Source of the DNA: Verrucomicrobiota bacterium
GTDB lineage: Bacteria > Verrucomicrobiota > Verrucomicrobiia > Limisphaerales > UBA11358
Assembly (NCBI GenBank): GCA_028873125.1
Contig: JAGWMQ010000016.1
Span: 1-42,263, forward strand
Length of the DNA: 42,263 nucleotides
Reading direction: 5' to 3'
Positions 15,375-18,970 of this stretch are shown here, piece by piece; position 1 is the stretch's first letter, and every line of letters starts with the position of its first letter. The notes under the pieces were generated by a model. The model was given only the letters and a program-made list of their open reading frames with translations. It did not search any database and was not told the DNA's origin. The translations under genes and the position numbers were made by a program.

Positions 15375-15884
15375 ATGTCCTTGGTTTTGCCCTACAAAGT
15401 CGCCACGCTGCTCTACTGCTTCAACGAGCGCGGCGAAATCCTGCTGCTCGAACGGGCGCAGGAGCCCAACCGCGGCTTCTGGAGCCCGTGCGGCGGCAAG
15501 TTGAAAATGGACCGCGGCGAGTCGCCCTATGCCTGCGCCTGCCGCGAGGCGGGGGAGGAGTTGGGCGTCCAATTTTCCCCGGGCGATCTGCATTTGACCG
15601 GGCTGGTCAGCGAACACGGCTATCAAGGGCGGACGCACTGGCTGATGTTCCTGTTCGAGGTGAAGAAAAAATTGACCGCGCTGCCGCCGCCCCATGCGGA
15701 GGGACGGTTTCAGTTTTTTCCACGCGACCAGGTTTCCAGCCTGCACATTCCGCAGACCGACCGCGAGCAGATCTGGCCGTGGTTCTGGAAATTCCGCGGC
15801 GGCTTCTTCGCGGCCCACTGCCATTGCCACCCTGACGGGCGAAACGACTGGACGCTGGAGGAGGCCAGCCAGAAAGCCGAGTGA
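15375..15884 (+). CDS. NUDIX hydrolase
   Basis: 'GGKLKMDRGESPYACACREAGEELGVQF' matches the Nudix box GX5EX7REUXEEXGU apart from minor deviations. Confidence 0.88.
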   Translation: MSLVLPYKVATLLYCFNERGEILLLERAQEPNRGFWSPCGGKLKMDRGESPYACACREAGEELGVQFSPGDLHLTGLVSEHGYQGRTHWLMFLFEVKKKLTALPPPHAEGRFQFFPRDQVSSLHIPQTDREQIWPWFWKFRGGFFAAHCHCHPDGRNDWTLEEASQKAE

Positions 15885-15956
15885 AGACGCAGAGGCGCGG
15901 CCCCCCGACGGGTTTGAATTTTGATTCCGCCTGCCGCATTCTTCCTTCTTGATCTT

Positions 15957-16439
15957 ATGGACGAGCCGATCATTGACCTGCACAGCGACGACTTTTTCAT
16001 GCGCGAGGCGTTGCGCCAGGCGGCCCGGGCGCGCGAGGCCGGGGAAGTGCCCGTCGGCGCGGTCATCGTGCGCGAGGGCAGCATCGTGGCGCGCGCCTTC
16101 AACCAGGTGGAACTGCTCAAGGACGCCACGGCGCACGCGGAAATGCTCGCGTTGACACAGGCGCAGGAGGCGGCGGGCGACTGGCGGCTGACGGATTGCA
16201 CGCTTTACGTCACCAAGGAGCCGTGTCCGATGTGCGCCGGGGCCATCGTCCACACGCGCCTGGCGCGGGTCGTCTTTGGCGCGGGCGACCCGAAGGCCGG
16301 CGCGGCGGGCAGCGCGCTGAATTTGCTGCAGTTTCCAACGCTGAACCACCGCTGCGAAATCACCCGCGGCGTGCGCGAACCGGAGTGCCGCGCCCTGTTG
16401 CAAAATTTTTTCGCCGGGCGGCGCAATGCGTTGAAATGA
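15957..16439 (+). CDS. tadA: tRNA-specific adenosine deaminase
   Basis: 'ATAHAEMLAL' (HAE) and 'LYVTKEPCPMCAGAIVHTRLARVVFGAGDPKAGAAGS' (PCxxC) zinc-deaminase motifs characteristic of TadA. Confidence 0.94.
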   Translation: MDEPIIDLHSDDFFMREALRQAARAREAGEVPVGAVIVREGSIVARAFNQVELLKDATAHAEMLALTQAQEAAGDWRLTDCTLYVTKEPCPMCAGAIVHTRLARVVFGAGDPKAGAAGSALNLLQFPTLNHRCEITRGVREPECRALLQNFFAGRRNALK

Positions 16440-16474
16440 TGGCGCCCGGCCTGGACGTTTCCCTTGAATCTCCG

Positions 16475-16562
16475 GGCAGGGCGCGCAGTCCTCTGCGCGC
16501 CGCCGATGATGAAGGAGAGGTTTTGACCCGGGCCGGCGCGCGCGGAGTGGCGCGCCCTACCC
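16475..16562. repeat. Interspersed palindromic repeat, family A copy 2 (inverted relative to copy 1)
   Basis: GGCAGGGCGCGCAGTCCTCTGCGCGCCGCC...GGCCGGCGCGCGCGGAGTGGCGCGCCCTACC; reverse complement aligns with 6128..6213. Confidence 0.8.
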
Positions 16563-16625
16563 GCCTGGGGTTCAAAGCCCCCATGCGCGATTCGAGAATC
16601 GCCGGGGCCTTGGAAATGACAGAGA

Positions 16626-16663
16626 ACAAAAAAGCAAAGCGCCCTTTCGGGCGCCTTGCTTTG
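16626..16663 (-). terminator. Rho-independent terminator downstream of the prepilin-like gene
   Basis: On the minus strand AAAGCAAGGCGCCCGAAAGGGCGCTTTGCTTTTTTTGTT: GC-rich stem-loop followed by a T-tract. Confidence 0.85.
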
Positions 16664-16682
16664 TGTTGAAATCAAATCCCGG

Positions 16683-17561
16683 TTACTGTCCTTGGACAGT
16701 CTGCGGGAAATTGTAAACCACGGCCTGGCCGGCATTGTTGGTGGCGGCCTGCAGTGCGTCACGCAATCCGCTCACGGTCACCTGCTGCACGCTGCCGTCG
16801 GCCAATCCGATATTGCCGCGGCCGTCATGCAGGTCGCTGGATGTCCACGCCCAGGTGTTGATCGCGGAACTGCCGCCGGTGCCGCCGCCGGTAAACGAAG
16901 TGCCGTTGCCCGCGATGGTCATGTATTTGCCCGTGGCGCCCGGATTGTTGTTGTTGGCGCTGACGCCGGTGCTGCTGCCGGCGCTGGCCCAGTTCCGGTC
17001 GCCGGTGAGGATGGTCTGCGGCTGGGTGTCAATGGCGTCGCCACCGACCAAGTAGCTGCAGGAGCCGTAGTTGTTTTTGCCTTGGGTCGCATAGTCGGAC
17101 GCACCGACGATGCCGGTGCCGCTCAGGCCGGTGTAGAATTGGGTGGCGAAATTCGTGGCCGCGCTGCCACGGCTGTCCGAAGGGCAGTTTACAATTTTGG
17201 GCGTGCTCAACTCATTGGACATCACGCCAAAGGCCGCCGGCTCGCTGAAGGTCGGCGCGCCGTACGGCGCCCCGGCGGCGGCCATGAGCGAAGGACTGGG
17301 GCCGCCGGAATAGTCATATTGTCCGGCCCCGCCCGCGGAAGCCGAGACAGTCATGGGGAAACGGTCGTTGTTGTCGCCTTCCCACTCGCGGAAGGCCAGG
17401 CCGCACTGCTTGAGGTTGTTGACGCAGCTGATTTGCTGGGCCTTGCGCTTGGCGGCCGCCAGCGCCGGCAGCAACATGGCCGCCAGGATGGCAATGATGG
17501 CGATCACGACGAGCAATTCGATCAGCGTGAAAGCCTTTTTATGGTTCAGACTTTTTTTCAT
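16683..17561 (-). CDS. Prepilin-like protein with N-terminal methylation motif
   Basis: [66 protein letters not shown]...; '[21 protein letters not shown]' (H-X9-DG-like). Confidence 0.92.
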
Positions 17562-17740
17562 ATGCAACTAACTGGTGTTTGGTTTTGGTGTTATCGGTGA
17601 CAGCCGCAGTCTTCATCCGAAATCCGCGCGTTGTCAACAGACAATTACAAGAGACTCTTCCAGCAGATTCGGTGCCATGACCTCGCCCGGCGAAAAACCT
17701 TCGAAAAACCGGCCCTCTGAATTTTTGTCAAGTGTAACAT

Positions 17741-17797
17741 GCGTGAATTTCACGCATCCATGCGTGAATTTCACGCATCGGCGCGTGAATTTCACGC
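17741..17797. repeat. Three tandem copies of palindrome GCGTGAATTTCACGC at 21-bp period
   Basis: Exact copies at 17741-17755, 17762-17776 and 17783-17797, each GCGTGAA-T-TTCACGC. Confidence 0.97.
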
Positions 17798-17834: not shown

Positions 17835-18809
17835 TCAGCCGCCGATGGCAGTCATGGGACGGCAGGGCTGGTATTGATTGCGGAACTGGTGTTCCCACGG
17901 CTTCAACCGCAGTGCGGTCTCCAGCAACTCGCGCAGGACGGTGTCGTCTGCGCCGCGCCGCAGGGCGGAGCGCAAGTCCACCTCAATGTGATTGCCGAGA
18001 CAGGGGCGCACCTTGCCGTCGGCGGTGAGCCGCATCTTGTTGCACTGGTCGCAGAAATGCTGGTTGGTCAGGGCGCCGATGAAACCGACGAGCGCGCCGG
18101 TCTGTTTGAGCAGGAAATACCTGGCCGGGCCGTGGCCGAGTTTGCGGTCGGGTTGCGGAGCCATCTCATCCCGCTGTTCCAGCACCCGCATCGCTTCGCC
18201 GCAGGCCATGAAATTTCTCTCCGTCAGGACCTCCGTCGTCGTCACCGGCATCAGCTCGATGAGTCGCAGCGGAAGGCCGTGCGCGGCGGCAAACAACACC
18301 AGGGGCCAGAGTTCGCGCTCGTTGACGCCGCGCATGAGCACGCAGTTCAATTTCACGCGCTCGAAGCCCGCCGCCACCGCCGCGCGGATGCCGGCCAGCA
18401 CGCGCGCCACGTCGCCGCCGGTGATGCGCCGGTAAATTTCCGGGTCCAGCGCGTCGAGGCTCACATTGACGGTGCGCAAGCCGGCCTCGCGCAGCGGCTG
18501 CGCCTGCGCCGCCAGCTTCATGCCGTTGGTGGAAAGGCCGATGCTTTCGACCCCGGGGATTTCCGTCATGGCGCGGACAATGTCCGGCACGTCCCCGCGC
18601 ACGAGCGGTTCGCCGCCGGTGAGGCGGAACTTGCGGAACCCCAGGCCCGCCGCCGCGCGCACGATGCGGATGAGTTCCGCGGCGGTCAGATGGTCCGGCT
18701 GGCGTTCCCAGCCCTTGTAGCCCTCCGGCATGCAATAGAGGCAGCGCTCGTTGCACCGGTCGGTGACCGAGATTCGCAGGTAGTCAATTATGCGTCCAAA
18801 CGGATCCAT
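17835..18809 (-). CDS. moaA: GTP 3',8-cyclase (molybdenum cofactor biosynthesis)
   Basis: MDPFGRIIDYLRISVTDRCNERCLYCMPEGY (radical SAM CxxxCxxC), 'FRLTGGEPLVRGD', 'FCDQCNKMRLTADGKVRPCLG', C-terminal GG. Confidence 0.96.
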   Translation of the reverse strand: MDPFGRIIDYLRISVTDRCNERCLYCMPEGYKGWERQPDHLTAAELIRIVRAAAGLGFRKFRLTGGEPLVRGDVPDIVRAMTEIPGVESIGLSTNGMKLAAQAQPLREAGLRTVNVSLDALDPEIYRRITGGDVARVLAGIRAAVAAGFERVKLNCVLMRGVNERELWPLVLFAAAHGLPLRLIELMPVTTTEVLTERNFMACGEAMRVLEQRDEMAPQPDRKLGHGPARYFLLKQTGALVGFIGALTNQHFCDQCNKMRLTADGKVRPCLGNHIEVDLRSALRRGADDTVLRELLETALRLKPWEHQFRNQYQPCRPMTAIGG

Positions 18810-18970
18810 CTTGTTGCTGTTCGCACCGGTTTTCGCGCCGCGCGCCGCTCCGACGCCGGTCGGCGCGATTCCCGTGGCAGCCATCCCGACCACCATATCG
18901 CATTTCAATTGGTCTGCAACCTTCTTGGGGCTGCGCCGCCGCGATGTTTTGCGCCCGCCGGACGGGCGGC

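Follow-up and report, generated by a model that had tools for sequence, protein, structure and literature searches.

A 21-bp-phased palindrome array in Verrucomicrobiota as a probable enhancer of a sigma-54-dependent prepilin promoter

We identified three exact palindromes upstream of a prepilin gene in a 42,263-nucleotide stretch of a Verrucomicrobiota genome, hereafter the window. Judging from their association with a sigma-54 promoter, their prepilin targets and their helical phasing, these palindromes are almost certainly upstream activating sequence (UAS, enhancer) sites for a sigma-54 enhancer-binding protein (bEBP). The array as a whole is very probably the UAS of a sigma-54-dependent pilin promoter, with the response regulator encoded at G000:C205 as its most likely activator. 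Sites, promoter, spacing rule, target gene and the presence of RpoN and of activators were obtained by sequence comparison.

The array, its promoter and its target

The 15-mer GCGTGAATTTCACGC occurs three times without mismatch at a period of 21 bp, as the first-pass annotation had reported, and the linkers between the copies are ATCCAT and ATCGGC. It is palindromic except for its central base, with GCGTGA and TCACGC as arms and a core that reads ATT or AAT. When up to three mismatches were allowed, 12 matches were found in the window, six of which are the two strand readings of the three sites; the same search of shuffled windows returned 3.1 ± 1.95 matches and reached 12 in 0 of 100 shuffles. 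TRF reported a single 21-bp array of 2.9 copies with 92% matches. The array lies between the end of moaA (17835-18908, minus strand; Radical_SAM and Mob_synth_C domains), 38 bp away, and a prepilin gene on the same strand. The distance of about 180 bp to the latter that had been claimed at the outset agrees with an ATG at 17561, 180 bp from the array. Between the palindromes, which serve the minus strand, and the prepilin gene there is a sigma-54 promoter. The features are as follows:

17783-17797, minus strand: putative UAS palindrome 3, distal, 42 bp farther from the promoter than palindrome 1; exact match
17762-17776, minus strand: putative UAS palindrome 2, 21 bp farther from the promoter than palindrome 1; exact match
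17741-17755, minus strand: putative UAS palindrome 1, promoter-proximal, minus-strand reading GCGTGAAATTCACGC; exact match, with the same arms in relatives
17678-17740, minus strand: spacer of 63 bp from the proximal palindrome to the -24 element; aligned by eye
17662-17677, minus strand: sigma-54 -24/-12 promoter TGGCACCGAATCTGCT; assigned from sequence, at the same position in relatives, with an RpoN gene in the genome
16683-17561, minus strand: prepilin, the target gene, 292 amino acids, with an N-terminal methylation motif and a DUF1559 domain; forms a single ortholog group together with prepilins that are UAS-linked in relatives

The promoter fits TGGCAY-N6-TGCT, with the GG of the -24 element and the GC of the -12 element 10 bp apart, and is conserved in relatives. 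Transcription would be expected to start near 17650 on the minus strand, and the prepilin ATG lies about 100 bp beyond the promoter. RpoN is represented in the genome by one PF04552 match (199.9 bits, C143). A TTGACA hexamer some 25-35 bp after the -12 element (about 17630-17640 in the window) recurs in many congeners and is possibly a second promoter.

A genome-wide search for the 15-mer, the check named beforehand, was run as a mismatch-tolerant pattern search of the 3.74-Mb assembly and returned two more arrays, each 63 bp from a sigma-54 promoter; the extent of the regulon is that given by pattern searches of this kind. One array (C125) is placed between divergent genes and is followed by a gene for a secreted repeat protein of 1,848 residues; its three sites are spaced at 21 and 22 bp, and one of them has an arm mismatch. 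The other (C15) combines the 17-mer GCGTGAAATTTTCACGC with one 15-mer and is followed by a prepilin gene. Beyond the palindromes of both, the DNA resembles the window spacer in an alignment by eye, with CTTGAC, then TTTTTC-AAGG-TTTTT and then GGCAY-N6-TGCT, and the last palindrome is 63 bp from the -24/-12 element at all three arrays. About 30 other sites in the genome match the 15-mer with two mismatches; they were set aside as array sites, as the ones inspected were solitary and coding-looking.

The window prepilin was compared, with the shared N-terminal helix excluded, to 63 other prepilins, nearly all of them UAS-linked. Matches at E<1e-5 were obtained for 58 of the 63 (best 4e-55), whereas the second prepilin of the window (22293) reached only 3e-5. 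The element therefore marks one orthologous group among the several prepilins of each genome, and we infer that the product of 16683-17561 is a candidate major pilin. The genome encodes five long homologs of type IV pilus/type II secretion ATPases, none of which exceeds the PilB cut-off, so that either a pilus or a secretion pseudopilus is plausible. A few large secreted proteins are also found behind the motif and may be co-regulated. Two large glycine-rich secreted repeat proteins from different genomes (L028:814-6360, minus strand, and L118:2265-7301, plus strand) are 38% identical, and each lies behind a similar UAS-sigma-54 promoter.

Distribution and helical phasing

Of 49 congeneric genomes, 34 contain a two-site half-site pattern with free core and linker, as do 74 of the 293 genomes examined in the order; the reversed control pattern gave no match in the same two sets. 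In a phylum-wide draw, 2 of 388 genomes matched besides that of the window, with cores that look like chance, and by this measure the arrangement appears to be essentially absent outside the order. A scan for sites plus promoter across 84,980 species, with one genome each, returned 69 loci labelled Verrucomicrobiota or bacterium, and the first downstream gene encoded a prepilin in 55 of them. Three loci (L085, L122, and L136) carry the labels Methylacidimicrobium fagopyrum and Akkermansia muciniphila and have promoters identical to those of genomes of the order; these labels look wrong.

Among loci fetched without a promoter requirement, [CT]GGCA[CT]N6TGC follows the sites in 53 of 63, at 56-102 bp, and a prepilin is next in 47 of 63. 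When the arms were shortened to CGTGA...TCACG, the outer bases, no longer required, were G and C in 58 of 62 cases, and a second half-site, likewise unrequired, was present 19-22 bp away in 23 of 31. Many of the instances counted in all of these searches are orthologous pilin promoters, so that the counts are not independent. The genus consensus is approximately GCGTGAnnnTCACGC-N5-GCGTGAAAATTTCACGC, 60 bp, TGGCATCGGCATTGCTAA. Relatives mostly have two sites only, compared with three in the window, whose perfect 15-mers form an exceptionally strong instance of this consensus. Selection on the palindromes had been proposed from their invariance next to differing linkers, and this contrast extends well beyond the window, as dozens of genomes keep the arms but differ in cores and linkers. 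Genome G232 has at least 11 pattern matches, many at 22-bp spacing, which suggests an expanded regulon.

Measured from the last GCGTGA to TGGCA, the distances of 85 non-redundant pairs cluster at 56-57, 66-70, 76-80, 86-91, and 100-102 bp. These steps give a Rayleigh R of about 0.82 at a period of 10.5-10.75 bp, with a nominal p of about 1e-20 for the 66 loci without a CATTGG spacer motif, a value overstated by shared ancestry; the observed circular concentration was reached in 0 of 5,000 uniform draws. Several distance modes one helical turn apart are hard to explain by ancestry alone. Successive half-sites are 20 bp apart in 59 cases, 21 bp in 10, 22 bp in 8, and 19 bp in 2, and a 15-mer beside a 17-mer at 20 bp corresponds to 21 bp from centre to centre. 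Dyad sites are thus found upstream of the promoter and in helical phase with it, as in the UAS of a bEBP, the exception being genome G112, where sites lie downstream. The conserved arms, the 19-22 bp spacing of the copies and the phased promoter distance favour the view, already put forward in the first-pass annotation, that protein would bind cooperatively along a single helical face ahead of the prepilin gene.

Two arrays of G112 overlap the start codon of a prepilin gene downstream of the sigma-54 promoter (L251, about 1059-1110, and L249, about 1574-1625). The overlapping sequence, ATG CGT GAG GTT CAC GCA CTT TGG CGT GAG GTT CAC GCA CGC CGT CGT GGT TTC ACG, corresponds to MREVHALWREVHARRRGFT. 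The L251 array would also encode the prepilin leader (ATGCGTGAGGTTCACGC... = MREVHALWREVHARRRGFTLIEL), and its L249 counterpart has a TTG start.

The candidate activator and alternative readings

The genome of the window encodes 11 full-strength bEBPs. A lead to the relevant one comes from a distant, unclassified MAG (L106), in which the genes gmk-coaC-coaB-histidine kinase-bEBP are followed directly by two palindromes, a sigma-54 promoter and a DUF1559 prepilin gene; its array reads GCGTGAATTTCACGC-GCGATT-GCGTGAACATCACGC, followed by the promoter TGGCATAATAGTTGCT. The best match to the L106 regulator among the 11 is the C205 regulator, and the two have the recognition-helix core RHSLRY in common. 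The C205 regulator is also preceded by gmk, coaC, and a kinase, in synteny with L106 (E=2e-61 for the kinase, 1e-32 for gmk, and 2e-54 for coaC). It has a receiver domain (PF00072), a sigma-54 activation domain (PF00158) and a Fis-type HTH (PF02954), with the GAFTGA motif of an NtrC-class bEBP. Nearly every genome of the order has a close ortholog, and the helix (S/T)RH(S/A)LRYRM is almost constant among them; GAFTGA was found in 42 of the 47 orthologs scanned, and kinase motifs upstream of all 47 examined. In G112 (91% complete), which has five arrays, only two true bEBPs were found, one of which is a C205 ortholog. On this comparative evidence, a C205-type regulator is likely to be the protein that reads the sites.

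It should be noted that the C205 regulator and the target prepilin, whose counterparts are linked in L106, are on different contigs in the window genome and that, since the regulator is nearly universal, its co-occurrence with the sites across the order is uninformative. In six families where arrays are rare or lacking, 45 genomes searched with a relaxed UAS-promoter pattern gave one match, versus two for the reversed control. This result counts against a simple one-to-one relation of regulator and site: in these families, the operators have either changed in sequence or shifted in position, or they are read by a different protein.

In the model that we infer for binding, cooperativity, looping, activator identity and the signal sensed, dimers of an NtrC-type activator would occupy each of the GCGTGA-N3-TCACGC palindromes. 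Their 21-bp period, equal to two helical turns, would align these dimers on one face and help the AAA+ oligomer to assemble. Bending or looping of the DNA would then bring the activator into contact with RNA polymerase-sigma-54 at TGGCAC-N6-TGCT, which on the minus strand lies 63 bp farther downstream, so that the promoter would melt and the prepilin gene 16683-17561 would be transcribed. The activator would be the C205 response regulator (15793-17283) acting with the adjacent membrane histidine kinase, a PilS/PilR-like pair beside coaC and gmk. A broader proposal is evenly balanced: this ancient gmk-coaC-adjacent pair may govern an order-wide Verrucomicrobiota regulon of pilins and surface proteins through its own 21-bp-phased operator code, and in the G112 family the operator may have moved to the pilin start codon, where it would be enhancer and leader-peptide code at once.

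The same enhancer could be read by another bEBP, such as PrsR (the PEP-CTERM regulator) or the AtoC-like C103, which we consider rather unlikely. One of the 11 bEBPs is a PrsR equivalog (TIGR02915) over the curated cut-off (L064, G000:C145; 610 versus 502.6 bits), and the C205 regulator also occurs in many genomes without recognisable sites. However, the C205-type pair directly adjoins the UAS in L106, and neither of the two bEBPs of the five-array G112 has a PrsR-like helix/HTH. PrsR is therefore not present wherever the sites occur and is disfavoured as their regulator. The AtoC-like type was not found in G121, a UAS-bearing genome that is 73% complete. The targets are mostly prepilins, and no PEP-CTERM match was detected in the two large secreted targets scanned. 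The PrsR score suggests in its own right that a PEP-CTERM system may exist in the window genome.

Readings outside sigma-54 control fare worse. GTGA and TCAC half-sites recall CRP sites, yet an operator for a CRP/FNR-type or other sigma-70 regulator is very improbable, as CRP-type sites have a 6-bp centre, compared with 3 or 5 bp here, and the constant neighbour, a sigma-54 promoter, depends on a bEBP. Even less weight can be given to a VNTR or mobile palindromic repeat with no regulatory role. The copies are exact and tandem, and the genome has three arrays; against this, dozens of species share the arms and differ in the cores, and the reversed pattern was never found. Random-length arrays with no promoter association had been named as the outcome that would speak against a binding array; what we found is two or three copies at fixed, phased distances from a sigma-54 promoter, and on these patterns the array is not a simple tandem repeat. 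RNA hairpins acting as a moaA terminator or processing signal are just as improbable, since the array, although it starts 38 bp past the moaA stop and allows a 6-bp hairpin per palindrome, has no T-run, lies between divergent genes at C125 and is phased to the promoter, a DNA-level property.

Comparison with known systems

NtrC-type enhancers have paired dimer sites, whose tandem palindromes share one helical face, precede a -24/-12 promoter and are helically phased. The architecture described here is alike, while operator sequence, target and lineage differ. A close functional parallel is the control of pilA by PilS-PilR and sigma-54 in Pseudomonas aeruginosa, and also in Geobacter and Dichelobacter (PMC6058289), which likewise involves a membrane histidine kinase, an NtrC-type regulator, a sigma-54 promoter, a pilin gene as target and upstream regulator sites. 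The PilR sites of P. aeruginosa are NifA-like, TGT-N11-AGA with GTCT elements (PMC6058289), a type to which the operator GCGTGA-N3-TCACGC does not conform. The regulator in the window genome is, in addition, unlinked to the pilin gene, and the kinase is under the Pfam threshold for 6TM_PilS: the C205-locus kinase gave no match, and that of L106 scored 19.6 bits against a cut-off of 27, each having four clear segments in a simple hydropathy analysis. The system would thus work like PilS-PilR pilin control by analogy, and membership in PilSR proper is not established because of the differing site type and the sensor domain below threshold.

Nla28 of Myxococcus xanthus is also a bEBP, and its sites ahead of sigma-54 promoters are likewise repeated and clustered, but these are imperfect 8-bp direct repeats with loose spacing (PMC9765219), in contrast to the strict palindromes at about 21 bp seen here. 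PrsK-PrsR (PEP-CTERM/exosortase; TIGR02915) likewise has a sigma-54 response regulator, which is present in the window genome; it differs in that the targets here are mostly prepilins and G112 carries its arrays without a PrsR-like bEBP. A 2025 survey of sigma-54 regulons reported PilA enrichment in beta- and gamma-proteobacteria (PMC12316311). In the open literature searched, we found no paper on pilin regulation in Verrucomicrobiota and no direct precedent. This would be a sigma-54 enhancer circuit of a familiar kind that seems not to have been described in Verrucomicrobiota, and with operator, promoter, candidate activator and target named to the base, it is directly testable.
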